The position numbers were made by a program, and so were the translations under genes. The notes beneath the pieces are model-generated. The model ran no database searches. It was not told where the DNA came from and saw nothing but the letters and a program-made list of their open reading frames with translations. Shown here in pieces: positions 27,444 to 42,870 of a stretch of DNA of 64,000 nucleotides (its first letter is position 1; each line of letters opens with the position of its first letter). The stretch spans positions 1,922,001 through 1,986,000 of the forward strand of contig NZ_LT671418.1 of assembly GCF_900130075.1 (NCBI RefSeq). Reading direction: 5' to 3'. The DNA comes from Herminiimonas arsenitoxidans (GTDB lineage Bacteria > Pseudomonadota > Gammaproteobacteria > Burkholderiales > Burkholderiaceae_D).

Positions 27444-28520
27444 TTATTTCGCGCCGTTCAAAATCCAGGCAACCAGCGTTTTAATATCGTCATCCTTAAC
27501 ATGTGCTTGCGCCGGCATAGGTATCGGGCCCCATGTGCCGCTGCTACCGTTTTTGATCTTGGCTGCCAATCCTGCCGTTGCTCCTGCATCGCCTTTGTAC
27601 TTGGCAGCGATTTCATTGAAGCCTGGACCTATGATCTTGTTGTTAACGCCGTGACAGGCAACGCAAGCGTATTGCTTGGCGATGGCAAGTCCATCCGGTT
27701 TAGCAGGTGTTGCAGGCTTGGCCGGTGCAGCGAGTGCCAACTTCTGATCTTTGGAAACGGCAGAAATCGGTGTAGTCAAAGCTGGCTTGGTGGTATCGAC
27801 ACCACGTACTTCACCGAAGGGACGGTTCTGTTCCTGAATATTGCCGTGTGCATTTCTGGATGGTGCTGGCAACGTCGAACGAACATCGCTGCTGACCGGA
27901 CAATCCTTCATGCATGCCACGCTCTTCACATCCGGCTTGCCTTTGACATCCCACATGCCGTGCTTTTGCGTCATGCCATTACGATTCGGCATCAGCTGTT
28001 GCACTTCGGCGATGTTCTTGTCCGACAGAACAAAATCGTCAGGCAGAACTTCGGCCATGTTCAGAATGTAAGCAGTCACCGCATAGACTTCTTCCGTCGT
28101 CAGCGACTTCGGCGCAGTCCACGGCATTGCGCGATTGATGTAATCCCACAAGGTCGATACGGTCGCGACTTTCATCATCGTGGTACGTTGCGGCTGCTTG
28201 TTGGTAGTCAATGCAGCAACGTGGCCCGTCTTCATATCTTCTTTGGTGGTGCCACCAACGATAGGCGTGAAGACTTCATTCGATTCACCGAAGGTACCGT
28301 GACAGGATGCGCACTTGCCTTCCCATACGATCATCCCTTTGGAAACCGAGCCTGATCCTTTTGGCAAACCCTTGAAGTCAGGACGCACATCGATGTCCCA
28401 CGCTGCGATTTCTTTTTCAGTTGCAGTACGGCCGATATTTGAATAAGCAGTTTGTGCAAAGGCTATCGCGCCCGTTGCTGCCAGCGCCAGCGCGACGACA
28501 GTTTTAGTAAACCTGGACAT
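27444..28520 (-). CDS. soxD: Sulfane dehydrogenase diheme cytochrome subunit SoxD
   Basis: SoxD takes electrons from the molybdenum subunit SoxC as the sulfane sulfur on SoxY is oxidised. The 358-residue precursor begins MSRFTKTVVALALAATGAIAFAQ (signal peptide). The first heme motif CASCH is at about residue 77 and the second, CVACH, is in the C-terminal quarter after an Ala/Pro/Lys-rich linker. Conserved Met-containing loops follow each. Its start lies 17 bp inside the 3' end of soxC, so the two subunits are translationally coupled. Confidence 0.95.
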   Translation of the reverse strand: MSRFTKTVVALALAATGAIAFAQTAYSNIGRTATEKEIAAWDIDVRPDFKGLPKGSGSVSKGMIVWEGKCASCHGTFGESNEVFTPIVGGTTKEDMKTGHVAALTTNKQPQRTTMMKVATVSTLWDYINRAMPWTAPKSLTTEEVYAVTAYILNMAEVLPDDFVLSDKNIAEVQQLMPNRNGMTQKHGMWDVKGKPDVKSVACMKDCPVSSDVRSTLPAPSRNAHGNIQEQNRPFGEVRGVDTTKPALTTPISAVSKDQKLALAAPAKPATPAKPDGLAIAKQYACVACHGVNNKIIGPGFNEIAAKYKGDAGATAGLAAKIKNGSSGTWGPIPMPAQAHVKDDDIKTLVAWILNGAK

Positions 28521-29865
28521 TCGACACCTCTCCGGATTCCGACACTTTCCACGACTGGATAGCGTTGTTGTGATAAATGGAGCGCGTGCCGCGCACTTCG
28601 CGTAGTTCATTGATTTTTGGTTGCACGTAACCGGTCTCGTCTATCGCACGCGATTGCAATACGACAGGCGAACCATCCCACGTCCAATTGATATTGAAAC
28701 GCGTCAGGCACTTGGTATTGATAGGCCCTTCCAGTCGTGCCGTGCGCCAGTTGCGTCCGCCATCGACAGACACATCGACGCGCTTGATCTTGCCGCGACC
28801 TGACCATGCCAAACCTGTGATGTTGTAGAAGCCTTTATCCAGCAGCATCTGACCGGCAGATGGTGTGGTGATGACCGATTTGCATTCTTGGATTGATGTG
28901 TACTGACGGTACATGCCATCCGGCATTGCATCGATATAGTGAATCGCTTCGTCTTTGGTAGCGTAAGGCATGTCGCCTACTTCGATACGACGCAGCCATT
29001 TGACCCATGACACGCCTTGCACACCCGGCACCACCAAACGCAGCGGATAACCATTCTCGGGACGCAGCATTTCGCCATTCATACCCCATGCGACGATGAC
29101 ATCGTCCAAGGCTCTATCCATGCTGATGGTGCGCGTCATGCTGGAACCATCCGCACCTTCGGCGAGGACGAACTTGCCATTCTTTTTGTCGTAACCGCAG
29201 TCTTCCAGCAACACCGATAAAGGCACACCAGTAAATTCGCAGCAGCTCAACATGCCATGCGAATACTGCACGGATGGAACGGCGACATTGCCCCACTCCA
29301 TCGCGGTATTGGCACCACACTCGATGAAGTGCATGCGTGATACAGACGGCAGACGCATCAAGTCATCCATTGTGTAAACTTTTGGATTCTTGACCAGGCC
29401 ATTGATCATGAAACGATGCTTGCTCGGATCGATGTCGTGCCAACCTTGATGATGACGCTCGAAGTGCAAACCGCTAGGCGTAATGATGCCGAACAGACCT
29501 TGCAGCGGCGCGAATGAAACCGAAGCGGCAGACACACGCGTCAGCCCCGGCGACTCGCGGCGCATCAGATTTTTTTCGTATTTGGATGGAACACCGTAAC
29601 CGTTGGTTGCTACAGGCTGACCCAACGTGGTGGAATGTTCAGGCAGATTCAGGATGTTGGGATCACCGTCACCGACTGCCGATCCTGTCTGTGCAAATGA
29701 AACACCACTTGCCATTGCAGCACTCGCTGCGAGAAAACTTTTACGCAGAAAACCCCTGCGCTCTTCACTCAAACCTTGGGATGTAATTTCCTGGGCCAAT
29801 ACAGGATCCACGAAATTCTCTGGCGCGCGCACTATGCGGCCCGCCTTTATCGCCTCTTTAGTCAT
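28504..29865 (-). CDS. soxC: Sulfane dehydrogenase molybdopterin subunit SoxC
   Basis: SoxC is a sulfite-oxidase-family enzyme that removes six electrons from SoxY-bound sulfane sulfur. The 453-residue precursor has a Tat signal set in from the start (Arg36-Arg37 in EERRGFLRKSF), the molybdenum-ligand Cys183 in FIECGANTAMEW, and the Mo-co dimerisation domain with VDVSVDGGRNWRTARLEGP. AGGAG precedes the ATG. Presence of soxCD predicts full oxidation of thiosulfate to sulfate without sulfur globules. It is the first gene after a TATA-rich operator. Confidence 0.96.
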   Translation of the reverse strand: MTKEAIKAGRIVRAPENFVDPVLAQEITSQGLSEERRGFLRKSFLAASAAMASGVSFAQTGSAVGDGDPNILNLPEHSTTLGQPVATNGYGVPSKYEKNLMRRESPGLTRVSAASVSFAPLQGLFGIITPSGLHFERHHQGWHDIDPSKHRFMINGLVKNPKVYTMDDLMRLPSVSRMHFIECGANTAMEWGNVAVPSVQYSHGMLSCCEFTGVPLSVLLEDCGYDKKNGKFVLAEGADGSSMTRTISMDRALDDVIVAWGMNGEMLRPENGYPLRLVVPGVQGVSWVKWLRRIEVGDMPYATKDEAIHYIDAMPDGMYRQYTSIQECKSVITTPSAGQMLLDKGFYNITGLAWSGRGKIKRVDVSVDGGRNWRTARLEGPINTKCLTRFNINWTWDGSPVVLQSRAIDETGYVQPKINELREVRGTRSIYHNNAIQSWKVSESGEVSNVQVY

Positions 29866-29903
29866 CCATCGTCTCCTGCTGCAATTTCGTTTAATTATGT
29901 GCC

Positions 29904-29925
29904 TATATAACTATATGCGCATATA
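29904..29925. promoter_or_regulatory. Candidate SoxR operator upstream of soxC
   Basis: TATATAACTATAT (29904-29916) runs directly into a perfect 14-nt palindrome TATATGCGCATATA (29912-29925), 39-60 bp before the soxC ATG. The same 13-mer, inverted, lies before the SoxH-like gene at 31949-31961. Confidence 0.65.
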
Positions 29926-29958
29926 CGGAATATTAGAAACGTTTTTTTCTTTTTTTAA

Positions 29959-30342
29959 TTATCTGCTGGCGATGCGACGTGTCGTTGCCACGACTGGTAG
30001 TTCAACTACCGGTGATTGCACGCCTATCTGGGCAGCAACCCGACCACATACTGACTTACACAAATCGACGGTCTTCTCATCATCGACGCGGTAATAGACT
30101 TGCGTACCATCTTTGCGACGCGCGAGAATTTTTGCGCGATACAACATATTGATTTGGCGCGACACATTCGCTTGTGTCGATTCGACTTCGTTGACGATAT
30201 CGCCAACCGAACGCTCACCATTACACACTGCGTACAGAATCTTCAGGCGAGTCGGCTCACAGAGCAAAGAAAAATAGTTTGCCACTTCTTCAAACAGCAC
30301 ACTCATCTCTTCTTTGTTGAAATTTTTATCCACGACCAGCAC
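29959..30342 (-). CDS. soxR: ArsR-family regulator of sulfur oxidation, SoxR type
   Basis: A winged-helix repressor with LCEPTRLKILYAVCNGERSVGDIVNEVESTQANVSRQINMLYRAKILARRKDGTQVYYRV. SoxR proteins of this kind (unrelated to the MerR-type redox SoxR) repress sox genes until a sulfur compound modifies cysteines. Cys28, Cys40, Cys95 and Cys99 are candidates here. The 127-residue frame starts at GTG; an ATG at residue 13 (30304-30306) would give 115 residues and is equally possible. It lies directly upstream of soxC with the operator in the gap, and downstream of a separate terminated unit. Confidence 0.87.
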   Translation of the reverse strand: MLVVDKNFNKEEMSVLFEEVANYFSLLCEPTRLKILYAVCNGERSVGDIVNEVESTQANVSRQINMLYRAKILARRKDGTQVYYRVDDEKTVDLCKSVCGRVAAQIGVQSPVVELPVVATTRRIASR

Positions 30343-30420
30343 CTAAAAATAAATAGTAAAAACAGATAGTTCGTTCACTATACACATGCAACGTTAACAC
30401 TACTGCGTCATCACTGCACT

Positions 30421-30454
30421 TAAAAAAACTGCCGAGTTAGCAATAACCCGGCAG
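30421..30454 (-). terminator. Rho-independent terminator after the DsrE-like gene
   Basis: CTGCC-ga-GTTA (30429 on) pairs with TAAC-cc-GGCAG (ending 30454) around a gcaa loop. On the minus strand it is followed by TTTTTTTA (30421-30428). It separates the SoxH-like/DsrE unit from soxR. Confidence 0.8.
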
Positions 30455-30459
30455 GCTGA

Positions 30460-30888
30460 TTACGGCTTGATGTAAGCGTAACCTTCTTGTATCTGTAAAC
30501 GAGCCACTTCAGCCACGCCAGAAGGAACAATAGTTGCCTCCTGGATCACTTGGCTCTTGTCGATTTTGCGTGTTTCCAAAGTATTGTTGCAAACCCGGAA
30601 TTGCACATTGCGATTCACCAGTTCTTGCACGACTGCATCGTAAGGATTACCGTTTTTGTTCTTTGCACCTTCCAGCAAGAAATCGATGCCTGGACCATGT
30701 GTCACGACGATGATTTTCGCTTTAGGGCTGGCATTCAAATGATTGCGGATATTGTTCAAAGCAGCGGTAGCAACAGAGCTATCGTTGATGTGATACACCA
30801 CCTTCTCTTCACGCTCGGCGGCACCAGCAGCTGTCATACCGACAGTTGCACATAAAAGTAACAGGAATGCTGCGCGGATCATTTTCAT
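30460..30888 (-). CDS. Exported DsrE-family protein
   Basis: A 142-residue precursor with a signal peptide (IRAAFLLLLCATVGMTAAGAA) and a DsrE-like fold. Visible features are EEKVVYHINDSS, IIVVTHGPGIDFLLEGAK and the conserved cysteine in VQFRVCNNTL, where DsrE/TusD relatives carry sulfur. Several Met codons cluster at the start; the ATG at 30888 has the best spacing to GGAG. It follows the SoxH-like gene by 41 bp and is closed by a strong terminator. A sulfur-relay role in the periplasm is inferred. Confidence 0.82.
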   Translation of the reverse strand: MKMIRAAFLLLLCATVGMTAAGAAEREEKVVYHINDSSVATAALNNIRNHLNASPKAKIIVVTHGPGIDFLLEGAKNKNGNPYDAVVQELVNRNVQFRVCNNTLETRKIDKSQVIQEATIVPSGVAEVARLQIQEGYAYIKP

Positions 30889-30929
30889 CATCGTCTCCAA
30901 AATTAGAATTATCGTCTAGCCACATCAGT

Positions 30930-31901
30930 TTAAGGCTTATCCAGACTTTCTTTTTCCATCAAAATATAGGTGCCGTAAGCATTGAGTCGATTGGCTTGAT
31001 CAAATGCCGGATATTTCTCAAACCCAGACCAATCAACCTTGCCATACGCTTCATCAAACGGTACCAGATCCGCTACTGCATCACCCATTTTTTGTCGTAA
31101 AAAAATCAGGTAATCGCGCGTCAACTGCATATCCTTCAAAGGCGCATGTGACATTTTTCCATGCCCTGGAACAACCATCGCTGGCTTGACTTCCAGCATA
31201 CGATCCAGTGCTTGCAGCCAGACTTTGCTATTCGCTTCGCCGACAAACGGAATACGGCCAGTGAAGAATAGATCGCCTGCAAACAAGACTTTATCTTCAT
31301 CTACGTACAGCATGATGTCTTCCGGCGAATGCGCACCGCTGGAATCAATAATGCGGAAATGCATGCCGCCCATTTCAAACGGCAGCACTTTGGCATCTTT
31401 AAAACTGAGCCAGCGATCTGCCGGGATCAAACGCGTATTTTCATTCACCCATGGCGCCAGATCGGTACGGCGCTGCTTGAGTCGCTCTTGCGTCAAATCA
31501 GAATTCAGTGTGGCACGCGCATTCTCGTGCGCCCAGACTTCTGCACCTTGCGCCTTGAATGCTTGCAAACCATAGAAATGATCTGCGTGGTAATGACTGA
31601 TAATCACGCGCTTCACCGGTTGCGGTGTGATCCGCTTGATCGCCTTCAACATCGCTTCACCCAAGGCTGGCGTTGCCAATGCATCGAAAACGACTACGCC
31701 ATCTTTCGTAACAACAAAGCCGGCATTCGACATGAAGCCTTTGTTGGCCGCGCTTGCCATTCCGGCTGTGCCCTGGAAGTAATACACATGCGGCGATATT
31801 TTTATCGGACGCAGCGTGATTTCTTCTGCGACTGCTGCACGTGCACACAACAGTGTCAGTGCGATAAACAGAAAACCATAAACCTTGGTATAGCGCTGCA
31901 T
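30930..31901 (-). CDS. soxH: Exported metallo-beta-lactamase-fold hydrolase, SoxH-like
   Basis: A 323-residue precursor with a signal peptide (FLFIALTLLCARAAVAEE) and a metallo-beta-lactamase domain. HYHADH is the zinc motif; SSGAHSPEDIML, FAGDLFFTGRIPFVG and VPGHGK supply the remaining ligands. SoxH-type proteins occur at the ends of sox clusters, but their reaction is not settled; thiol-ester or persulfide hydrolysis has been suggested by fold. GGAGAAG precedes the ATG. Its promoter region contains the 13-mer shared with soxC. Confidence 0.82.
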   Translation of the reverse strand: MQRYTKVYGFLFIALTLLCARAAVAEEITLRPIKISPHVYYFQGTAGMASAANKGFMSNAGFVVTKDGVVVFDALATPALGEAMLKAIKRITPQPVKRVIISHYHADHFYGLQAFKAQGAEVWAHENARATLNSDLTQERLKQRRTDLAPWVNENTRLIPADRWLSFKDAKVLPFEMGGMHFRIIDSSGAHSPEDIMLYVDEDKVLFAGDLFFTGRIPFVGEANSKVWLQALDRMLEVKPAMVVPGHGKMSHAPLKDMQLTRDYLIFLRQKMGDAVADLVPFDEAYGKVDWSGFEKYPAFDQANRLNAYGTYILMEKESLDKP

Positions 31902-32721: not shown

Positions 32722-33864
32722 TTACTGACTCAAGCCACGCGCATCGATATTCCACAAGCATTCAACAACATCACCTCTGAATCCGACGTACTGCTGATAC
32801 AGATTTGCAGTCGGATCGCAGTGACCAGGAATCAGAAACAGGCGTTCACCCAGATAATCCCGTTCATTACCAGCCGCAATCTGCAAAATCCCATGCTCAT
32901 CATTGGCGGCCGTATATTTCAACTGATCGCCATATTCTCCCGGCCTGACCAAGGGCAAACCGGAATCCACCGCCACGCCTTTAAGGCCAACATCGCATAC
33001 GGCCAGCCCTGCTTTTGCGGTACTCATAATAGTAGATGCGATAAACAGGCTATGTGCCGGCTTCCATCCGCCTACCCAATCCTTGGAACCGTAGTCGCCA
33101 TCCATAAACACATAAGAGCCAGGCTGAATCTCGGTAAATACACCACTCGTCACGTCGAACTCGGCCGTCCCCGTGCCACCGCCTGTAACAACCGGGCAAG
33201 CGATCCCGCGCGCGGCAAGGAATTGCACATACTGCGCCGCCGCATCAGCCGCGACACTCGCCGCCGACCGACGCTGCTCCCAGCTAGCCACATGCTGAAT
33301 GCCGCCGTGATACGCCTGCAAACCACCAAAAGACAAACCTTGATAGCGCGCGATCCTGTCGACCAAGGCAGCCAGCGCATCATTACCTTTCACTCCGCAG
33401 CGCCCCTGACCTATATCCACTTCAGGAAAAACTGCGATAGAAACACCGGCCTGACTAACTGCTTTTCCCAGCGCATCCACTTGCGCCACATGATCCACAC
33501 ACACGCTTAAGCGCACGTAGCCTGCCAATTCAACGGCCATCGCCACCTTGTCCGCACCGACAAACTCATTACTAATATGTATGCTCTGCACGCCCTTCGC
33601 GACGAAAGGGTAAGCCTCGCTCATCTTTTGGCAGCAAATCCCGACTGCACCCAAAGCCAACTGCGCTTGGGCAATCGCGCTTGATTTATGTGCTTTGGCA
33701 TGCGGCCGCAATGCCACGCCATGCCGCTGCGTCAATTCCGCCATGCGTTGCGCATTCGCCTCAAACGCCTCCAGATCGAGCAAAAGCGCAGGCGTACTAA
33801 CGCGCGAGACCGGATCGCCGATACGGGCCATGACCGGCAACTTCAAATTTGCGACATCTTTCAT
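32722..33864 (-). CDS. DSD1-family PLP enzyme, D-threonine/3-hydroxyaspartate aldolase-like
   Basis: A 380-residue fold-type III PLP enzyme (alanine-racemase N-domain plus DSD1 domain). The N-terminus has STPALLLDLEAFEANAQRMAE, and RPHAKAHKS (about residues 53-61) holds the PLP lysine, probably Lys57. The metal site reads GHCDPT with His348 and Asp350; D-threonine aldolases use His-x-Asp, whereas D-serine dehydratases use His-x-Cys. This favours an aldolase that splits a beta-hydroxy amino acid into glycine plus an aldehyde or glyoxylate. It diverges from the second TTT operon, with a shared control region. Confidence 0.83.
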   Translation of the reverse strand: MKDVANLKLPVMARIGDPVSRVSTPALLLDLEAFEANAQRMAELTQRHGVALRPHAKAHKSSAIAQAQLALGAVGICCQKMSEAYPFVAKGVQSIHISNEFVGADKVAMAVELAGYVRLSVCVDHVAQVDALGKAVSQAGVSIAVFPEVDIGQGRCGVKGNDALAALVDRIARYQGLSFGGLQAYHGGIQHVASWEQRRSAASVAADAAAQYVQFLAARGIACPVVTGGGTGTAEFDVTSGVFTEIQPGSYVFMDGDYGSKDWVGGWKPAHSLFIASTIMSTAKAGLAVCDVGLKGVAVDSGLPLVRPGEYGDQLKYTAANDEHGILQIAAGNERDYLGERLFLIPGHCDPTANLYQQYVGFRGDVVECLWNIDARGLSQ

Positions 33865-34234
33865 GCTCACTCCGAAGTAATAAATAAGACGATATACAGG
33901 ACTTCTCGGCATCCCTAGACGCATCCGGAAGCAGCTACTTTGTACTCAAAATGCCATTTATACGAATTTCTTCGAAAAATTTCATGGCATCACGTATCCA
34001 GCAATTGACATTTTTTCTCAGATGTATATTGTATTCAATATTCTAAATGCACGGATCGCAAATTACAGCGACTCCATACTTTTGGGAAATTATTAGTTGG
34101 CAGAGATGAAAAAAGCGCGTCAGACGCATGCATTTCTACCGACAAACGAATTCAGGATGCGGGCAATGATGTGCGCGACTGATGCAGGAGATGGTCAAAA
34201 AAGGGTACGCAACCCACATATAGGAGACAGCATC
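33865..34234. promoter_or_regulatory. Divergent control region, DSD1 gene and second TTT operon
   Basis: No convincing gene lies here; an in-frame extension of tctC from 34097 lacks signal-peptide logic. It contains TTGACA (34005-34010) and TATTGT (34027-34032) with a 16-bp spacer on the plus strand, and the operator-like element 34028-34043. An imperfect AT-rich inverted repeat lies at 33964-33983 nearer the DSD1 gene. The tctC leader would be near 200 nt. Confidence 0.6.
34028..34043 (+). promoter_or_regulatory. Candidate GntR/FCD operator before the second tctC
   Basis: ATTGTATTCAATATTC contains the ATTG-n4-CAAT dyad and overlaps the proposed -10 box. It matches 38459-38474 at 14 of 16 positions. 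GntR regulators with FCD domains often bind TTGTATACAA-like sites. Confidence 0.65.
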
Positions 34235-35239
34235 ATGCAGAAAAAACTTATCCGCCAACCGATGAAAATCGGCCTCTTCCTCACCACGATGTGCTGCGCA
34301 TTAAGTGCATCAGCCTGGGAACCAACCAAACCGGTTGAGCTGGTCGTACCGTTCAGCGCAGGTGGCGCATCAGATCAGATGGCACGCTCGATTCAAGGCA
34401 TCATCACCAAGCACAATCTGATGAAGCAACCGATCATCGTGCAAAACAAGGCCGGCGCCAGCGGCGCGGAAGGCTTGCTGGATCTGAAAGCAGCCAAAGG
34501 CGACCCAAACAAAATTATCGTCGCATCCTCATCGATATACACCACACCACTCGCTACCAACCTGCCATTCAACTGGCGCGATCTGACACCGATCGCCATG
34601 GTTGCGCAAGATGCATTTGTACTGTGGACCAATACTCAGGCTGGCTACAAAACACCAATGGCTTATATTGACGACGTCAAGAAAAAGCCAGAAACATTCA
34701 AGATGGGCGGCACCAGCTCCAAGCGCGAAGATCACATGATTACGATGATGATCGAAAAGCAAACTGGCGCGAAATTCCTCTACATTCCGTATAAAGGCGG
34801 CGGCGAAGCAGCTACTCAACTCTCCGGTAATCACATCAATTCCGACACTAACAATCCATCTGAATCCGTTTCACAATGGCGCGCCGGTGAACATCAGGCT
34901 TTGTGCGTGTTCTCGCCTAAACGCATTGCATACACCGCTAAAGTAACTGCCACACAAGCCTGGTCCGACATCCCTACCTGCAAGGAAAAGGGACTGAATG
35001 TCAGCTATGAAATGCTGCGCATTTTCATGATGCCAGGCGGTGTCAAACCAGAACAGACACAGTTCTACGTGGACCTGTTTAAAAAAGTGATGGAAACACC
35101 TGAGTGGAAAACATATCTCGAAAAGAATGCGCTGAAAGGCGAATTCATGACGGGTGCTCCGCTGGAAGCGTTCCTGATGAAAGATGAACAGTTGCACCGT
35201 GAAATCATGAAAGAGGCTGGCTTCATCGTCTCCAAGTAA
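34235..35239 (+). CDS. Second Bug-family periplasmic binding protein, TctC type
   Basis: A 334-residue binding protein starting at MQKKLIRQPMK, with TAGGAG eight bases upstream and a signal peptide ending near ALSASAW. The Bug pattern is present but divergent: KPVELVVPFSAGGASDQMARSIQ, VQNKAGASGAEGLLDLKA, and YIPYKGGGEAATQLSG in place of the usual TGPAM motif. This places it in a subgroup distinct from tctC at 7432. It is first in a tctC-tctB-tctA operon placed between a beta-hydroxy amino acid enzyme and an aminotransferase, so the ligand may be a hydroxylated or amino dicarboxylate. That is inference. Confidence 0.93.
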   Translation: MQKKLIRQPMKIGLFLTTMCCALSASAWEPTKPVELVVPFSAGGASDQMARSIQGIITKHNLMKQPIIVQNKAGASGAEGLLDLKAAKGDPNKIIVASSSIYTTPLATNLPFNWRDLTPIAMVAQDAFVLWTNTQAGYKTPMAYIDDVKKKPETFKMGGTSSKREDHMITMMIEKQTGAKFLYIPYKGGGEAATQLSGNHINSDTNNPSESVSQWRAGEHQALCVFSPKRIAYTAKVTATQAWSDIPTCKEKGLNVSYEMLRIFMMPGGVKPEQTQFYVDLFKKVMETPEWKTYLEKNALKGEFMTGAPLEAFLMKDEQLHREIMKEAGFIVSK

Positions 35240-35316
35240 TCCTCACATCATCACCCTGATTCAATGACCGACATGCGTATGCCACGGTCATTGAATCACT
35301 TCACGGACAAGCGAAT

Positions 35317-35838
35317 ATGAATCCTTCAGAACCTCACGCAGAAGAAGAGAGAGAACACTCTCGCGCAGTCATCACCATCCGTAGCGCCGAAATCATCGTC
35401 GCGATTGCGCTCGGTCTGGTATCCCTCCTTACTATCTGGAGCAATTACCAACTCGGCGCAGGCTGGGGTCCTTACGGCCCCGAAGCCGGTTATTTCCCAC
35501 TCAGATTAGGTGTAGTGATCCTGCTCGCCAGTTGCCTCGTATTAGTCCATGCGATACGCGATAACGATCAAACGCCCTTCCTTGAAATCGCACAAGCACG
35601 TCTGGTTGCAGTCATTCTGCTGCCTTTAATCGTGTTCGTTTTTACCATTGCATATCTGGGCATTTACGTCGCATCGATCATCTTCATCGCAGCATTCATG
35701 TTTTTCCTCGGCAAGTTCACTTGGTGGAAGTCGGCCAGCGTGTCGATCATCGTCATGCTCGTGTTCTTTTTTGTTTTCGAAATTCAATTCAAGGTGCCGC
35801 TGCCTAAGGGTCCTCTTGAAAACTGGTTAGGCTTCTAA
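35317..35838 (+). CDS. TTT transporter small membrane subunit, TctB family
   Basis: A 173-residue protein with four hydrophobic helices after a polar, acidic N-terminus (NPSEPHAEEEREHS). The family GWGPYGPEAGYFPLRLGVVIL segment follows the first helix. It lies 77 bp after the binding-protein gene and 9 bp before tctA, so it is part of the second TTT operon. Confidence 0.9.
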   Translation: MNPSEPHAEEEREHSRAVITIRSAEIIVAIALGLVSLLTIWSNYQLGAGWGPYGPEAGYFPLRLGVVILLASCLVLVHAIRDNDQTPFLEIAQARLVAVILLPLIVFVFTIAYLGIYVASIIFIAAFMFFLGKFTWWKSASVSIIVMLVFFFVFEIQFKVPLPKGPLENWLGF

Positions 35839-35847
35839 GGAAAAAAC

Positions 35848-37356
35848 ATGGAAGAACTAAACTCATTAATGATCGGCTTCGGCCACGTTCTTGGCTGGCA
35901 CAACATTGCACTGATGTTCCTCGGCATTTTGCTGGGCATCGTAGTCGGCGTGCTGCCTGGTCTCGGTGGTCCGAATGGCGTTGCCATACTGTTGCCGCTC
36001 ACGTTCTCGATGAATCCGACCTCCGCCATCATTCTGCTGTCTTGCATCTATTGGGGCGCGTTGTTCGGTGGTGCGATCACATCTATCCTGTTCAACATTC
36101 CAGGTGAGGCATGGTCGGTGGCCACAACCTTCGATGGTTATCCGCTCGCGCAACAAGGCAAGGCGGGGCAGGCACTGACGTCCGCATTTACTGGCTCCTG
36201 TATCGGTGCATTGTTCGGCGTGATCGTGATTACCTTCCTGGCTCCAGTGGTCGCCAAGTTTGCATTGCGCTTTGGCCCGCCGGAATTTTTCGCTGTCTAC
36301 TTCCTGACCTTCTGCAGCTTTATCGGCATGGGCAAGGAACCGAAAGCGAAGATCATCATTTCGATGTGCGTCGGCTTTATGCTTGCAGCAGTCGGTATGG
36401 ATACCGTGTCCGGACAATTGCGTATGACCTACGATGTCCCTGATCTGTTGCGCGGATTCGATTTCCTCGTAGCCGTAATCGGTTTGTTCGGCGTCAGCGA
36501 AATTCTGATCACGATGGAAGAAGGCTTGGCATTCAAGGGCAAGAAGGCAGCGATTGATCTCAAGGTTGTTTTCAAGACCTGGGCGATGATGCCGAAATAC
36601 TGGATGACCTTGTTGCGTTCGTCGGTCATCGGTTGCTGGCTGGGCATTACACCAGGCGGCGCGGTAGCTGCATCCTTCATGGGATACGGCATGGCGAAGA
36701 AGTTGTCGCGTGATTCCGAGTCTTTCGGCAAAGGCAATATTGAAGGCGTACTGGCACCGGAAACAGCAGCACACGCTGCCGGCACCAGCGCACTACTGCC
36801 TATGCTCGCACTCGGCATTCCTGGTTCGGCTACAGCTGCGGTTCTGCTTGGCGGCTTGATGATCTGGGGCTTGCAACCAGGCCCTATGCTGTTCGTCGAA
36901 CAAAAGGAATTTGTCTGGAGCTTGATTGCCAGTATGTACCTCGGCAACATCGTCGGCTTGCTGGTCGTACTCAGCACAGTCCCGGTATTCGCTGCGATCT
37001 TGCGCATTCCGTTTTCGATCATTGCGCCAGCCATCATGGTGATTTGTGCGATCGGTGCCTACACAGTACACGGCGCAGAATTCGACATCTGGTTGATGGT
37101 GATCTTCGGCGTGATTGGCTACATCTTCAAGAAATTGAATTACCCGTTAGCTCCGTTGGTTTTAGCCTTGGTGCTGGGTGATCGTGCAGAAGATGCCTTC
37201 CGTCAAACCATGGTTGGCTCCAAAGGCGCACTCGGCGTGTTCTGGGGCAGTGGTCTGGTTGGCACCGTGATGACGTTGGCAGTCATCGCATTGATCTGGC
37301 CTATCATCAGCAGCCTTATCGGTAACCTTCGTCAGAATCGTCAAAAACCTGCCTGA
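35848..37356 (+). CDS. TTT transporter large membrane subunit, TctA family
   Basis: A 502-residue permease with the duplicated TctA layout: GLGGPNGVAILLPLTF and GEAWSVATTFDGYPLAQQGKAG in the first half; GITPGGAVAASFMGYGMAKK, APETAAHAAGTSALLPML and LGIPGSATAAVLLGG in the second. Compared with the TctA at 5280, the pore motifs differ at many positions, suggesting a different substrate class. AAGGAA precedes the ATG. A 15-bp bidirectional terminator follows, 45 bp after the stop. Confidence 0.95.
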   Translation: MEELNSLMIGFGHVLGWHNIALMFLGILLGIVVGVLPGLGGPNGVAILLPLTFSMNPTSAIILLSCIYWGALFGGAITSILFNIPGEAWSVATTFDGYPLAQQGKAGQALTSAFTGSCIGALFGVIVITFLAPVVAKFALRFGPPEFFAVYFLTFCSFIGMGKEPKAKIIISMCVGFMLAAVGMDTVSGQLRMTYDVPDLLRGFDFLVAVIGLFGVSEILITMEEGLAFKGKKAAIDLKVVFKTWAMMPKYWMTLLRSSVIGCWLGITPGGAVAASFMGYGMAKKLSRDSESFGKGNIEGVLAPETAAHAAGTSALLPMLALGIPGSATAAVLLGGLMIWGLQPGPMLFVEQKEFVWSLIASMYLGNIVGLLVVLSTVPVFAAILRIPFSIIAPAIMVICAIGAYTVHGAEFDIWLMVIFGVIGYIFKKLNYPLAPLVLALVLGDRAEDAFRQTMVGSKGALGVFWGSGLVGTVMTLAVIALIWPIISSLIGNLRQNRQKPA

Positions 37357-37401
37357 CAAACGTGTAGCGGTGGAGAACAACGACTTTCCACTGCCCAACG
37401 T

Positions 37402-37437
37402 AAAAAAGCCTGAAGATTTCTCTTCAGGCTTTTTTTA
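37402..37437. terminator. Bidirectional Rho-independent terminator
   Basis: AAAAAAGCCTGAAGA (37402-37416) and TCTTCAGGCTTTTTT (37421-37435) form a 15-bp stem with loop TTTC and a T-run in both directions. It serves tctA on the plus strand and the gntR gene on the minus strand. Confidence 0.92.
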
Positions 37438-37485
37438 TTGCTGCAGATATTACGTAAGCAAATGAGCTGCGAATTACCTTAGCGC

Positions 37486-38211
37486 TCAATCTACCTTTGC
37501 AGCACGGCTGCTGGTGTCACGCAAATCTGCCATCACTGAGTCACGCTTGTCGAGCAAATGCTGGCGCAGAATAACTGCCAGTCGTTTGCCATCACGTGCT
37601 TCCAGCGCTTGTATCATTTCATCATGTTCACCGATGGCTCTATCCCACTTCTCTTCCTTGAAGTTGGACTTAAAGCGCAAGGCCAGCAAACGTCTGTTCA
37701 CTGATAGATAGATTTGTCGCAGCATCGAATTGCGCGCCGCTTCATTGATCTTGTTATGAATGGTTTGATTGCGGCTGTAATAACCAGGCAAATCGTTTTG
37801 TGCTCTGCATACCAGCATCGCTTGATGCAAGGCCTTGATATCAGCAATCTCGGCTGGTGAGATGCGCTCGGCTGCCAACTCGCCTGATAAGGCTTCCAGA
37901 CCGCTCATCATTTCAAACGCTTCCCAGACTTCGGTGTCATTCATCTTCGACACGAAAGCACCGCGATTCGGCACGATGTCGATCAAGCCTTCAGACGCCA
38001 GCACCTTCATCGCTTCACGTAGCGGCGTGCGCGAAATACCCAAGCGTTCGCACACTTCGCGCTCGTTCAACTTCATGCCCGGAGCCAACACGCCTTCAAT
38101 AATCAGTCGCTGCAAATGTTCCACCACCGCATCATGCAAGCGCTGACGCTCCATACGTGGCATGTCTGGACTGCTATTGTTGTTTTCACCAGCGATCAAT
38201 GTATTTTGCAT
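37486..38211 (-). CDS. GntR-family regulator with FCD domain
   Basis: A 241-residue regulator. The winged helix spans about residues 20-90 with GVLAPGMKLNEREVCERLGISRTPLREAMKVLASEGLIDIVPNRGAFV, followed by an all-helical FCD ligand-binding domain (residues 100-220). The FCD domain shows YSRNQTIHNKINEAARNSML and IGEHDEMIQALEARDG, where His and Asp residues usually hold a metal ion. It lies between, and convergent or divergent with, the TTT operon and the aminotransferase gene. Matching elements TTGTATnCAATATTC lie before both. It is most likely a repressor released by the catabolised compound. Confidence 0.92.
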   Translation of the reverse strand: MQNTLIAGENNNSSPDMPRMERQRLHDAVVEHLQRLIIEGVLAPGMKLNEREVCERLGISRTPLREAMKVLASEGLIDIVPNRGAFVSKMNDTEVWEAFEMMSGLEALSGELAAERISPAEIADIKALHQAMLVCRAQNDLPGYYSRNQTIHNKINEAARNSMLRQIYLSVNRRLLALRFKSNFKEEKWDRAIGEHDEMIQALEARDGKRLAVILRQHLLDKRDSVMADLRDTSSRAAKVD

Positions 38212-38458
38212 ACTAAGTCCGATTTAATTTAACCCTATTTTAATCTAATTGCCTGGTAAATGATGCAGCACACCATATGCCATTTCAGACATATCCCATA
38301 CGGCCGATTACATATATCTACTTAGTCACGCCACGCCAGTATTGCATTCCCAGCAACTTGCTGGATACACCTAAAAACGACATACAAACCGTCCGTATCA
38401 ATTCGCACATTGTTAGGCGCAAAAAGCTTTACTAATCAAAATCACTCTGCTAAAGTAT

Positions 38459-38474
38459 TTTGTATGCAATATTC
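38459..38474 (+). promoter_or_regulatory. Candidate GntR/FCD operator before the aminotransferase
   Basis: TTTGTATGCAATATTC contains TTG-n4-CAA and matches 34028-34043 at 14 of 16 positions. It lies 30 bp before the start codon in the 292-bp divergent gap with gntR. A weaker half-site (GTATGC in GTATGCAAAAT, minus strand) overlaps the gntR start near 38205-38215 and could serve autoregulation. Confidence 0.65.
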
Positions 38475-38503
38475 AATAATATGAAATTTCTTAGGAGACT
38501 GAA

Positions 38504-39721
38504 ATGCTGAAGCTCGACTTTCATCCGGCCGGCCGCCACATGTTGCAAATTCCTGGCCCGAGTCCTGTGCCGGATCGCATCCTGCGCGCAATGAGCTACC
38601 CGACCATCGATCACCGCGGCCCTGAGTTTGGCGCGCTGGGCTTGAAGGTCTTGTCCGGCATACAAAAGATTTTCAAAACGACGCAACCAGTCATCATTTA
38701 CCCAGCATCCGGTACCGGCGCATGGGAAGCAGCATTGAGCAACACCCTCAGCCCAGGCGACACCGTACTGATGTATGAAACAGGTCACTTCGCCACGCTG
38801 TGGAAAAAAATGGCAGAAGCACTCGGCATCAAACCTGAGTTCATCGGTTTGCCTGGCATCGAAGGCTGGCGTCGCGGCGTACAAGCTGATTTGATCGAAG
38901 CACGTCTGCGTGCCGATACCGGTCATGTCATCAAGGCAGTCTGCGTAGTCCATAACGAAACCTCCACCGGCGTTACCTCCAATATCGCTGCCGTACGTAA
39001 AGCGATGGACGCAGCCAATCACCCTGCATTGTTGTTAGTCGATACGATCTCCGGCCTCGCGGCAGCGGACTATCGCCATGACGAATGGGGCGTGGACGTC
39101 ACCGTATCCGGTTCGCAAAAAGGCTTGATGCTGCCACCTGGCATCAGCTTCAATGCCGTCTCGAAAAAAGCGATCGCTGCCAGCAAGAACGCCAAGTTGC
39201 CACGCGCATTCTGGGATTGGACTGACATCATCGAGATGAACAAAACCGGCTACTGGCCGTACACACCAAACACCAATCTGTTGTACGGCTTGCACGAAGC
39301 GCTCGACATGATCCTCACCGAAGGCTTGGACAATGTATTTGCCCGCCACGAACGCCTGGCTGCAGCTTGCCGCCTCGCCGTCAACGCCTGGGGTCTGGAA
39401 GTGCAATGCGCAGATTCGACCGTCTACTCGCCTATCCTGACCGGCGTCATGACACCAGAAGGCATAGACGCAGACATGGTGCGTAAAACCATTTACGAAC
39501 GTTTCAATATGTCGCTGGGCACCGGCCTCGGCAAGATGAAAGGCCGCATGTTCCGCATCGGTCACTTGGGCGAAGCAAACGATCTGAGCTTGATGGCGAC
39601 ATTGGCCGGTTGCGAAATGGGTCTGAAAATCGCCGGCATCAAACTCAAGGGCAGCGGCGTTGGTGCAGCGATGGAATTTTTGGCAGAACAAAAAATCCCG
39701 CCGTTGAAAATTGCAGCCTGA
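38504..39721 (+). CDS. Class V aminotransferase, serine/aspartate-glyoxylate type
   Basis: A 405-residue fold-type I PLP enzyme. The N-terminus HMLQIPGPSPVPDRILRAM and MSYPTIDHRGPEFG, the phosphate-binding YPASGTGAWEAAL, and the PLP lysine Lys206 in SGSQKGLMLPPGI are typical of serine-glyoxylate aminotransferases and the related aspartate-glyoxylate aminotransferase. The reaction would move an amino group between glycine/glyoxylate and another amino acid. TAGGAG precedes the ATG. Its neighbours, a DSD1-type aldolase and a carboxylate transporter, fit glyoxylate/glycine metabolism. The exact amino donor cannot be read. Confidence 0.88.
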   Translation: MLKLDFHPAGRHMLQIPGPSPVPDRILRAMSYPTIDHRGPEFGALGLKVLSGIQKIFKTTQPVIIYPASGTGAWEAALSNTLSPGDTVLMYETGHFATLWKKMAEALGIKPEFIGLPGIEGWRRGVQADLIEARLRADTGHVIKAVCVVHNETSTGVTSNIAAVRKAMDAANHPALLLVDTISGLAAADYRHDEWGVDVTVSGSQKGLMLPPGISFNAVSKKAIAASKNAKLPRAFWDWTDIIEMNKTGYWPYTPNTNLLYGLHEALDMILTEGLDNVFARHERLAAACRLAVNAWGLEVQCADSTVYSPILTGVMTPEGIDADMVRKTIYERFNMSLGTGLGKMKGRMFRIGHLGEANDLSLMATLAGCEMGLKIAGIKLKGSGVGAAMEFLAEQKIPPLKIAA

Positions 39722-39737
39722 TTTAAGACGATAAGAC

Positions 39738-39795
39738 TGCGACGAAAAAATCAACCTGCATGCTTGCGTAATAGCGAGCTGCAGGTTGTGTCGCA
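39738..39795. other. Large stem-loop between aminotransferase and oxidoreductase genes
   Basis: CAACCTGCA (39752-39760) pairs with TGCAGGTTG (39780-39788), with inner GCTTGC/GCGAGC pairing (one wobble) and an outer TGCGAC/GTCGCA. The stem is interrupted only by a bulged A-run. On the minus strand that run becomes T-rich after the hairpin, so it would terminate leftward rather than rightward transcripts. In the sense direction it may process or stabilise the mRNA. Confidence 0.6.
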
Positions 39796-39870
39796 CAATT
39801 TAAAGAGACGCACGCGACTGTGCAGCGCTGATTGAATGTGCTGTTTATTTCAGAAAAGGATGTCCTGGAA

Positions 39871-42870
39871 ATGCTCGTCAAGCCGATTCACTTTGTTCCT
39901 GTAAGCGGCCGTAGTCCCAGCCCGCTGGCAAGCCGCTTGCGCAAAGAATTGCGCGGCGATGTGTTATTCGGCAATGCAGATCGTGGTCGTTACGCCACCG
40001 ATGCGTCTATCTATCAAATCATGCCGATAGGTGTTGTCGTTCCGCGCGATCAGGCTGATCTGCTGCTCTGCCTCGACATTGCACGTTCCGAAAAAACACC
40101 CATCCTCGCGCGCGGTGGTGGCACCAGCCAATGCGGTCAAACAGTAGGCGAAGCGCTGGTCATCGACAACAGCAAGTGGCTCAACAACGTTATCGATTTC
40201 GATGCAGAAAAACGCACCATCACGGTAGAACCGGGCATGGTGCTGGATCATCTGAATGCATGGCTCAAGCCGCACGGATTATGGTTCCCGGTTGACGTTT
40301 CTACTGCAGCCCAATGCACGATAGGTGGCATGGCAGGCAACAATTCCTGCGGCTCACGTTCTATCGAATACGGCAATATGGTGCACAACGTGTTGGCGAT
40401 AGATGCAGTGCTCGCTGATGGCACGCAAGGTCGCTTCGAGACGTTGGAAAATATGGCGCACACCACGCGCCTGCAAGAAATAACACAAGGCTTGCGTCGT
40501 ATCGCGACTCGCGAGCAACAAGAAATTATCGAGCGCGTACCGAAAGTATTGCGCCGCGTCGCCGGTTACAACATCGATCTATTCGATTGCCAAAATCCGC
40601 GCGCTTACACCGATGACGGCAGCGCCAATCTGGCACACATACTGGTTGGCTCCGAAGGGACACTGGCCTTCAGCCGCCAACTGACATTGAAGCTGGTGCC
40701 ATTGCCTAAGCACAAGGTACTCGGCGTCATCAACTTCCCGACTTTTTACCAAGCGATGGATGCCGCGCAGCACATCGTCAAACTGCTGCCGACCGCTGTA
40801 GAGCTGGTCGATCGCACGATGATCGATCTGTCGCTGGATATAGCCGCATTCCGCCCTGTCATTGAAAAGGCCTTGGTCGGTAGTCCACAAGCGATCTTGC
40901 TGGTGGAATTCGCCGGCGACGATAAAGTAGCTTTGGTTGAAAGACTCGCCGCTCTGGCCGACTTGATGAGCGATCTCAGCTTGCCGGGATCTGTCGTCAA
41001 CATGGTCGACGCGAACGAACAAAAAGCTTTGTGGGATGTGCGCAAAGCCGGTCTCAACATCATGATGAGCATGAAGGGGGACGGCAAACCCGTGTCCTTC
41101 ATCGAAGACTGCGCCGTACCGCTGGTGCATCTGGCCGAATACACCAATCGTCTGACTGAAGTCTTCCACAAATACCATACCGAAGGCACCTGGTACGCGC
41201 ATGCCAGCGTCGGCACCTTGCACGTGCGTCCGATCCTCGATATGCGCCGTGACGGCGCAGCCGATATGCGCAAAATTGCGGAAGAAGCATCGGCACTGGT
41301 ACGCGAATACAAAGGTGCCTATTCCGGTGAACATGGCGACGGCTTGTGCCGTGGCGAATGGGTGTCCTGGCAATATGGACCGAGCATCAATCAGGCATTC
41401 AGCGAGATCAAGGATCTGTTCGATCCGGACAATCGCTTCAATCCGGACAAAATCGTGCGTCCGCCGAAGATGGATGACAAAAGCAATTTCCGCTTTGCGC
41501 CCGGTTATCAGGAATTGGCGATCAAGACGCAACTGGATTGGTCTGCGTGGAACGTCACACGCGATCCTGCCAGCGGCAAGGAAACCGAACCAGGCACTGG
41601 CAATGATCGTACCGGCGGTTTAGCCAAAGCAGTCGAGATGTGTAACAACAACGGTCATTGCCGCAAGTTCGACGCTGGCACCATGTGCCCTAGTTATCGC
41701 ATCACAAAAGATGAACGTCACGTGACGCGCGGTCGTGCCAACACATTGCGTCTGGCTATCTCAGGTCAACTCGGTGATGAAGGACTAGCCAGCCCCGACG
41801 TCAAGGAAGTGCTTGATCTGTGCGTCTCCTGCAAAGGTTGCAAACGCGATTGCCCGACCGGCGTCGATATGGCGAAAGTAAAGATAGAAGCACGCGCTGC
41901 ATGGGCAAATAAACACGGCATCAGTCTGCGCGAAAAACTCGTGGCTTACATGCCGCGTTATGCGCCTTATGCCAGTCACGTCGGCACACTGCTCGCGGTC
42001 GCCGACAAGCTGCCATGGATATCCGGCTGGTTGAAAAAACAAATAGGACTGGCACCGCAACGTGCATTCCCTCGTTTCAAGTCATCCTTCCTGTCGCAGC
42101 GTAGCAATCACCGCAGCGAAGCAACGACCAACAAGGAAGTACTGCTGTTCGTCGATACCTTCAACAATTATATGGAGCCGGAAAACGCCATCGCCGCGCA
42201 AGCGGTGCTGGAAGCTGCCGGCTACACCGTGCATTTCAATGTACGCGCTGGTGAACGTCCGCTGTGCTGTGGCCGCACCTACCTATCCGCAGGTTTGGTT
42301 GATCAAGCCAAACAGGAAGCGCGCAGAACACTGGATGCATTGATGCCCTTCGTTAATAGAGGTGTTGCCATCGTCGGTCTGGAACCATCATGCCTGCTGT
42401 CGCTACGCGATGAATTCCTCAATTACGGATACGGTGAAGAAGCCGAGAAGCTCGCCAGCATGGCCTATCTGTTTGAAGAGTTCCTGGTACATGAACATAG
42501 CGCAGGACGACTGCAGCTTGATCTCAAGCCACTCGCCTCAAACAAGGCGATGGTGCATGGTCACTGTCATCAAAAAGCATTCGATGCATTCCGTCCGGTG
42601 CAAACAGTATTGAACTGGATACCGCAACTTGATGTTGCTGTGGTCGAATCATCCTGCTGCGGCATGGCTGGCAGCTTCGGCTATGAAGCAGAGCATTACG
42701 AAGCATCGCAAGCGATGGCTGAGCTATCGCTACTCCCGGCGATACGCAAGGCAGAAGATGGCACCATCTTCGTCGCCGACGGCACCAGTTGCAGACATCA
42801 AATTTCTGATGGTACACAGGAAGAAGCCATCCACGTCTCGCGCGTGCTGGCCGACGCCTTACGCAAGTAA
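39871..42870 (+). CDS. FAD-linked oxidase/Fe-S oxidoreductase fusion (D-2-hydroxyacid dehydrogenase type)
   Basis: A 999-residue protein fusing a GlcD-like flavoprotein to a GlcF-like iron-sulfur part. The FAD domain has VVVPRDQADLLLCLDIA, ARGGGTSQCGQTVGEA and GGMAGNNSCGSRSIEYGNM; the oxidase C-domain ends with GAYSGEHGDGLCRGEW. Two [4Fe-4S] motifs follow (CNNNGHCRKFDAGTMCPSY and CVSCKGCKRDCP), then two CCG domains (CCGRTYLSAG, CCGMAGSFGYE). The layout matches E. coli YdiJ and related D-lactate or D-2-hydroxyglutarate dehydrogenases; the substrate here is unknown. The ATG at 39871 is preferred, but TTG at 39832 is in frame. Electrons probably go to quinone. Confidence 0.9.
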   Translation: MLVKPIHFVPVSGRSPSPLASRLRKELRGDVLFGNADRGRYATDASIYQIMPIGVVVPRDQADLLLCLDIARSEKTPILARGGGTSQCGQTVGEALVIDNSKWLNNVIDFDAEKRTITVEPGMVLDHLNAWLKPHGLWFPVDVSTAAQCTIGGMAGNNSCGSRSIEYGNMVHNVLAIDAVLADGTQGRFETLENMAHTTRLQEITQGLRRIATREQQEIIERVPKVLRRVAGYNIDLFDCQNPRAYTDDGSANLAHILVGSEGTLAFSRQLTLKLVPLPKHKVLGVINFPTFYQAMDAAQHIVKLLPTAVELVDRTMIDLSLDIAAFRPVIEKALVGSPQAILLVEFAGDDKVALVERLAALADLMSDLSLPGSVVNMVDANEQKALWDVRKAGLNIMMSMKGDGKPVSFIEDCAVPLVHLAEYTNRLTEVFHKYHTEGTWYAHASVGTLHVRPILDMRRDGAADMRKIAEEASALVREYKGAYSGEHGDGLCRGEWVSWQYGPSINQAFSEIKDLFDPDNRFNPDKIVRPPKMDDKSNFRFAPGYQELAIKTQLDWSAWNVTRDPASGKETEPGTGNDRTGGLAKAVEMCNNNGHCRKFDAGTMCPSYRITKDERHVTRGRANTLRLAISGQLGDEGLASPDVKEVLDLCVSCKGCKRDCPTGVDMAKVKIEARAAWANKHGISLREKLVAYMPRYAPYASHVGTLLAVADKLPWISGWLKKQIGLAPQRAFPRFKSSFLSQRSNHRSEATTNKEVLLFVDTFNNYMEPENAIAAQAVLEAAGYTVHFNVRAGERPLCCGRTYLSAGLVDQAKQEARRTLDALMPFVNRGVAIVGLEPSCLLSLRDEFLNYGYGEEAEKLASMAYLFEEFLVHEHSAGRLQLDLKPLASNKAMVHGHCHQKAFDAFRPVQTVLNWIPQLDVAVVESSCCGMAGSFGYEAEHYEASQAMAELSLLPAIRKAEDGTIFVADGTSCRHQISDGTQEEAIHVSRVLADALRK

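Follow-up and report, generated by a model that had tools for sequence, protein, structure and literature searches.

What does a gene island that joins a pyridoxal phosphate (PLP) enzyme, a transporter, a regulator, an aminotransferase and a flavoenzyme take up and degrade, and do its genes answer to one regulator? The question is raised by positions 32722..42870 of a 64,000-nucleotide stretch of Herminiimonas arsenitoxidans (the window, meaning the whole stretch analysed), whose genome is a single contig of 3.78 Mb. The island was originally predicted to encode uptake and aldolase cleavage of a beta-hydroxy amino or dicarboxylic acid. The reading favoured here, on balance and with moderate confidence, is a catabolic regulon controlled by a GntR/FCD regulator that would import a small 2-hydroxy(di)carboxylate, oxidise it and transaminate the resulting 2-oxoacid, and in which a co-regulated enzyme of D-threonine-aldolase type would supply glycine.

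A shared operator-like palindrome

Every gene listed in the original prediction is present by open reading frame (ORF) and domain checks, in the order PLP enzyme (minus strand), tctC-tctB-tctA (plus), gntR (minus), then aminotransferase and flavin adenine dinucleotide (FAD)/Fe-S dehydrogenase (plus). The features are as follows, with the evidence in brackets.

32722..33864, minus: D-threonine-aldolase-clade PLP enzyme, DSD1 family, with His348/Asp350 and Lys57 (ORF, domains, alignment, tree)
33937..33952, no strand: weak operator-like site, two mismatches (consensus scan)
34005..34032, plus: predicted sigma-70-type tctC promoter, TTGACA-16-TATTGT (promoter scan; TTGACA block kept in seven loci)
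34026..34041, no strand: operator-like site ATATTGTATTCAATAT between aldolase and tctC, overlapping the predicted -10 box (scans, seven-locus alignment)
34235..35239, plus: TctC, substrate-binding protein of a tripartite tricarboxylate transporter (TTT) (ORF, domains)
35317..35838, plus: TctB, small membrane subunit (ORF, domains)
35848..37356, plus: TctA, large membrane subunit (ORF, domains)
37408..37429, no strand: inverted repeat and T-run between tctA and gntR, a possible terminator (seen in the sequence; absent from the promoter-scan listing)
37486..38211, minus: GntR/FCD regulator, a probable repressor (ORF, domains, models)
38203..38218, no strand: operator-like site over the gntR start, two mismatches (consensus scan)
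38457..38472, no strand: operator-like site ATTTTGTATGCAATAT before the aminotransferase, one mismatch, best in the genome (window and genome scans)
38504..39721, plus: class V aminotransferase, third clade beside SgaA and BhcA (ORF, domains, models, tree)
39871..42870, plus: fused FAD/4Fe-4S dehydrogenase of D-2-hydroxyacid type (ORF, domains, models, residue alignment)

The motif was first noticed as a near-identical palindrome that stands both upstream of the aminotransferase and in the gap that separates aldolase and tctC. Relatives were examined in a set of named loci, the best 80 of 580 aminotransferase matches, with features counted within 10 kb (nine loci are shorter than 19 kb). In 79 of the 80, the 330 bases before the aminotransferase contain a match to 10 or more of the 12 seed positions; mononucleotide shuffles give about 2.6 of 80. 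The symmetric consensus ATTTTGnATnCAAAAT was derived from these loci. Allowing up to two mismatches, it matches four places in the 64 kb, where 0.54 are expected and one shuffle in 100 yields as many. Each of the four lies in one of the divergent promoter regions, GntR/aminotransferase or aldolase/TctC. Genome-wide there are 23 such places, against seven for the reversed control, the aminotransferase site being the best; the presence of four of the 23 within the island has a probability of 4e-7, a figure qualified by the motif having first been seen in this island.

In the second promoter region, between aldolase and tctC, seven Herminiimonas/Oxalicibacterium loci share ATATTGTATTCAATAT without a change. 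Their alignment has 41 invariant columns there, and 35 of these are gathered in a single block of 45 columns, the best conserved of the region, spanning TTGACAT to TATTCAATATTC and the following AAAT. The predicted promoter TTGACA-16-TATTGT is the sole promoter-scan match in 33800-38600, and since the operator-like site overlaps its -10 box, the arrangement is as expected for repression. The proposal that the island's genes form one regulon is thus well supported, and they probably do, given a shared site in both divergent promoters that is kept in relatives; the aldolase's membership rests on the Herminiimonas/Oxalicibacterium group.

The PLP enzyme belongs with the aldolases

Read as 380 residues from the Met used by homologues (the longest ORF reaches 33924), the PLP enzyme carries His348-x-Asp350, as originally numbered, and Lys57 in its PHAK motif. 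These three residues align with those of Achromobacter D-threonine aldolase 4v15, and the His-x-Asp pair aligns with the pairs of solved D-threonine aldolases and of BhcC, the hydroxyaspartate aldolase of the beta-hydroxyaspartate cycle. Scores against solved D-threonine aldolases are 386.1 bits (4v15), 306 (7dib) and 253.7 (7yqa), with 274.9 for the BhcC structure 6qkb, 102 for D-threo-3-hydroxyaspartate dehydratase and 74.7 for D-serine dehydratase 3anu. The NCBIfam BhcC equivalog model gives 359.9 bits, short of its cut-off of 690, versus 752.3 for a true BhcC.

A maximum-likelihood tree of 32 rows was built from 26 of the 49 aldolase loci together with five references and the window enzyme, and many of the loci outside it are further entries of the same genomes; L083, L084, L085 and L107 are the same genomes as G022, G099, G057 and G031, respectively. 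Together with its module-linked relatives, the enzyme of the window groups with 4v15 (100/99), the two BhcC rows pair separately (100/100), and 12 module-linked rows form one clade (100/100) with two unlinked ones, G041 and G068. The dehydratase row is a hydroxyaspartate dehydratase standing in for D-serine dehydratase, on a very long branch whose placement is unsure. By clade and residues the enzyme is therefore classed as D-threonine-aldolase-type and not D-serine dehydratase; the aldolase part of the original assignment stands, and the grouping is with D-threonine aldolase, not with BhcC. With 4v15 it shares clade, His-x-Asp metal site and PHAKAHK lysine motif, whereas the window gene, known here from sequence, has TTT transporter genes and the hydroxyacid/aminotransferase operon as neighbours and shares an operator-like site with them.

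A second DSD1-type PLP gene, in L079 (8428-9624; own genome 2404523-2405611), lies 3' of a glutamate/aspartate-type ABC transporter, whose binding protein scores 394.9 bits (cut-off 375), and reaches 382.3 of the 690 bits of the BhcC model, possibly a separate hydroxyaspartate enzyme. Aldolase copies in L048 (5530-6668) and L102 (18988-19536 onward) seem split across two frames.

A third-clade aminotransferase and a fused flavoenzyme

The class V aminotransferase scores 453.9 bits against the BhcA equivalog model, below the cut-off of 650. In a tree with flagged long reference branches, module aminotransferases (55-100% identical to that of the window) are split at 99/100 from two SgaA, one BhcA, 6pk1 and L069, the last a row with the script label 'module' that is placed on the SgaA/BhcA side. 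The two SgaA rows, named so because they adjoin malyl-CoA genes, are 47-49% identical to the window enzyme, which nonetheless falls in the separate clade. The superfamily first proposed is retained, and the enzyme is placed as a third, sister clade that is neither BhcA nor the serine-glyoxylate aminotransferase SgaA of the serine cycle. Clade-specific residues were listed, none of which could be linked to a substrate. Four plasmid copies have no flavoenzyme in the stretch shown, that of Acidiphilium lying beside a bile-acid-symporter-type gene and the others among amidase, hydantoinase or purine genes; the aminotransferase is therefore used more widely.

The flavoenzyme (999 residues from its ATG; the longest ORF begins at 39832) is a GlcD/GlcF-like fusion by domains and models. 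Arg404, His457, His464, Glu500 and His501 are present in 117 of 117 matches (114 distinct; 44-100% identical to the window enzyme), and correspond to the catalytic Arg/His/His/Glu/His set of D-2-hydroxyacid dehydrogenases of the vanillyl-alcohol oxidase type, as PMC7801405 and PMC10589216 set out for the human D-2-hydroxyglutarate dehydrogenase and for mouse LDHD. In the side-chain pocket, Leu408, Ile424 (Val in 10 matches; its placement depends on a gapped alignment), Tyr455 and Arg466 differ from the Lys/Asn of D-2-hydroxyglutarate dehydrogenase and from the hydrophobic pocket of D-lactate dehydrogenase and GlcD, the latter having Val and Leu where the Tyr and Arg stand. Such a Tyr and Arg would suit a short anionic side chain. 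Equivalog cut-offs are missed for GlcD (183.7 of 567.9 bits) and for YdiJ (509.2 of 1350), from which the enzyme is set apart by model score.

Elsewhere the genome encodes a glcD-like protein whose 788.8 bits fall just short of its cut-off (897), with glcE as the next gene (548.8, cut-off 284), a 507-residue relative and a 1332-residue FAD/Fe-S relative that has no match to the YdiJ model. Glyoxylate carboligase is also encoded, above its model cut-off.

The module in other genomes

The conservation of the gene set proposed as a check was examined, and the set recurs. The nearest named aminotransferase locus is that of Herminiimonas contaminans (93%). Across the 80 named loci, with identity, coverage and score thresholds that drop weak matches, the neighbours are GntR in 78, a major facilitator superfamily (MFS) carrier in 62, the FAD/Fe-S enzyme in 61, TTT in seven and the aldolase in 11; GntR and the FAD/Fe-S enzyme are both beside the aminotransferase in 61. 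A 2-keto-4-pentenoate-hydratase-like gene is found in 51, a class III CoA-transferase in 21 (some belonging to a separate adjoining cluster) and an enoyl-CoA hydratase in six. The reference MFS carrier scores 244.7 bits against a D-galactonate transporter model with a cut-off of 395.

A draw across the phylum found the aminotransferase in 46 of 398 genomes, at 52 places, of which 34 loci were examined: these hold FAD/Fe-S (28), GntR (25), enoyl-CoA hydratase (13), CoA-transferase (12), TTT (11), a GlcG/HbpS-type gene (eight), a tripartite ATP-independent periplasmic (TRAP) transporter (six) and the aldolase (one), and 17 have none of four transporter types at the thresholds used. A Limimaricola plasmid combines aminotransferase, TRAP, hydratase and CoA-transferase, and one of Caballeronia grimmiae combines aminotransferase, hydratase-like gene, FAD/Fe-S enzyme, MFS carrier, CoA-transferase and aldolase. 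What recurs as the core in other genomes is GntR, the aminotransferase and the FAD/Fe-S enzyme, in many cases accompanied by a transporter for organic anions (TTT, TRAP or MFS); this swapping of the transporter in relatives points to an organic anion, not specifically an amino acid. The two CoA-transferases that were scanned come closest to enzymes for succinate-glutarate, mesaconate and oxalate, without reaching any of the cut-offs, which suggests a dicarboxylate.

Several individual arrangements bear on the module. On a Tateyamaria omphalii plasmid (L162 1790-15493) a complete bhcABCD-bhcR cluster immediately adjoins the core module, which includes a TRAP transporter there; in a 1.2-Mb genome of another family (L173 6629-15600) aminotransferase, FAD/Fe-S enzyme, TRAP, enoyl-CoA hydratase and CoA-transferase form one run. 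In L216 (7780-8850) and L201 (11075-12145) a GntG-family threonine-aldolase-type gene, unrelated to the DSD1-type aldolase, lies between gntR and the flavoenzyme (323.9 bits, cut-off 230; the two copies 97% identical). A literature search on the gene set, its parts and the beta-hydroxyaspartate cycle, whose coverage left out most subscription-journal papers, showed, among the papers listed, no title or abstract opening describing the module.

Linkage of the aldolase and alternative readings

Aldolase and aminotransferase co-occur more often than expected. Among 116 genomes of the family, the aldolase (1e-60) was found in 23, the aminotransferase in 29 and both in 16, seven of these having them within 20 kb; among 300 genomes drawn evenly from the order, the corresponding numbers were nine (1e-110), 83 (1e-150) and eight (Fisher 3.7e-7 for the family and 1.8e-4 for the order, kinship ignored). 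The aldolase also lies beside the module in several gene orders. The core elsewhere is mostly without it, so its original place as the central cleavage step, the heart of the pathway, is given up: it is a probable member of the regulon in the group around the window and turns up next to the module in other genomes too, as an optional minority addition.

Several observations weigh against the proposed regulon and pathway. The aldolase is near the module in the small fraction of named loci given above, and in the order draw it is close to the aminotransferase in one of the eight genomes with both, the window's own. Where it stands within the operon or at its end (Caballeronia, Pandoraea, G440, G024), the sequence upstream of it offers poor sites or none (7-11 of 14 at best); an unlinked clade member in a genome without the aminotransferase, L070, has a 12/14 site (the other unlinked member, L071, has 10/14), while aldolases outside the linked clade (L072-L079, L162) have 7-9 of 14. 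The promoter scan is weak by itself, finding fewer matches than shuffles do (1 versus 5.2). Of the 19 places that the genome has beyond the island, nine were inspected: five fall inside chosen ORFs, one covers a gene start and three are intergenic. They gave no clear further regulon member, and a wider regulon was dropped. One of the intergenic places (two mismatches; L226 2600-4284) does precede a TctC-family gene, at a distance of about 600 bp and with another small ORF in the gap. Arg466 is not module-specific, as it occurs in a 37%-identical haloarchaeal relative. Class V enzymes normally act on L-amino acids and the aldolase on D-amino acids; aminotransferase and aldolase therefore need share only glycine.

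A rival view makes the aldolase a passenger, a D-threonine or D-allo-threonine enzyme that shares the regulator in this group and handles a different compound from the core: linkage is confined to a minority of loci, and G041 and G068 carry same-clade aldolases in genomes without the aminotransferase. The common operator-like site, the recurrence in several gene orders and the excess co-occurrence speak against it, leaving it rather unlikely. Identity as a D-serine dehydratase, which has the same Pfam domains and for which some sources' name for homologues, D-serine deaminase-like, could be cited (near relatives otherwise carry generic names in homologue searches), is extremely improbable given 74.7 bits to 3anu versus 386.1 to D-threonine aldolase, the aldolase-type His-x-Asp site and the clade; it was dropped, the enzyme showing neither the metal site nor the clade of the dehydratases.

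A variant beta-hydroxyaspartate route, in which 3-hydroxyaspartate would enter through the TTT system and be split by the PLP enzyme into glycine and glyoxylate, with the aminotransferase in the role of BhcA, draws on the shared superfamilies, the conceivable glycine/glyoxylate chemistry and the direct adjacency of the Tateyamaria core module to bhcABCD. There, however, the module aminotransferase stands beside a true BhcA (448.7 versus 729.3 bits in the BhcA model), and in the window both enzymes miss the cut-offs and lie outside the BhcC and BhcA clades, so that membership in either was rejected. The absence of dehydratase and iminosuccinate reductase noted for the island holds genome-wide: the only BhcB-like match (32%) is the biosynthetic threonine ammonia-lyase IlvA (807.1 bits, cut-off 411.3, versus 197.5 against the BhcB cut-off of 550), and BhcD has no match at 1e-5, with a query that recovers itself in its own plasmid. 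A complete cycle elsewhere in the genome was thereby discarded, although a purely catabolic cleavage would need neither enzyme, and the variant is judged improbable. Similarly slim is the prospect of a glycolate module, with the flavoenzyme as glycolate oxidase and the aminotransferase making glycine from glyoxylate. The GlcD/GlcF-like fusion, the GlcG/HbpS-type gene nearby in eight of the 34 phylum loci and on the Tateyamaria plasmid, and the glyoxylate carboligase agree with it, but the genome has a separate glcD-like gene and glcE, on which the fusion was rejected as the only glycolate oxidase, and the pocket positions that are Val and Leu in GlcD are Tyr and Arg in the fusion. The GlcR-glcDEF system of Paracoccus denitrificans, as described in PMC11323563, likewise sets a GntR-family repressor over a 2-hydroxyacid oxidase, with other target genes.

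Proposed pathway

In the 2-hydroxy(di)carboxylate regulon favoured here, the regulator would, without inducer, sit on ATTTTGnATnCAAAAT sites at the gntR/aminotransferase and aldolase/tctC divergent promoters. When present, the substrate would enter through the TTT system; the FAD/Fe-S enzyme would convert the 2-hydroxyacid, probably the D form with a short anionic side chain, to a 2-oxoacid, which the third-clade aminotransferase may interconvert with its amino acid, or the aminotransferase may use glyoxylate as acceptor to form glycine. The co-regulated aldolase-clade enzyme would free glycine from a D-beta-hydroxy-alpha-amino acid. The chemistry of the members seems, by a modest measure, to fit a short 2-hydroxy(di)carboxylate best, with glycine as the meeting point.

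Threonine aldolases can decarboxylate aminomalonate. A highly speculative version of the pathway, put forward at low confidence, is a widely distributed, undescribed glycine-forming route in which, for example, tartronate would be oxidised to mesoxalate by the FAD/Fe-S enzyme, transaminated to aminomalonate and decarboxylated to glycine by a threonine-aldolase-type enzyme. The slot of the PLP decarboxylase would then, just as doubtfully, be filled by a D-type enzyme here and by the unrelated GntG/L-type in one other lineage, and a prochiral intermediate would explain how aldolases of opposite stereo-type fill one slot. An alanine-ketomalonate aminotransferase exists, according to PMC7736077.

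Neighbouring genes

Upstream of the island, window positions 28504-31901 hold a SoxC-type sulfite dehydrogenase (623 bits, cut-off 420), an ArsR-type regulator and a metallohydrolase with a SoxH-related score below cut-off, a set apparently for sulfur oxidation.

Significance

New here is the conserved operator-like palindrome in both divergent promoter regions, and three tempting labels are corrected: the PLP enzyme is not assigned to BhcC, the aminotransferase to BhcA or SgaA, or the flavoenzyme to YdiJ or GlcD. An operator candidate and a narrowed short list of substrates are thereby supplied for a core that spans Herminiimonas, Paraburkholderia, Caballeronia, rhodobacterial plasmids and the 1.2-Mb genome of another family, a distribution so wide that the substrate is probably a common environmental compound.

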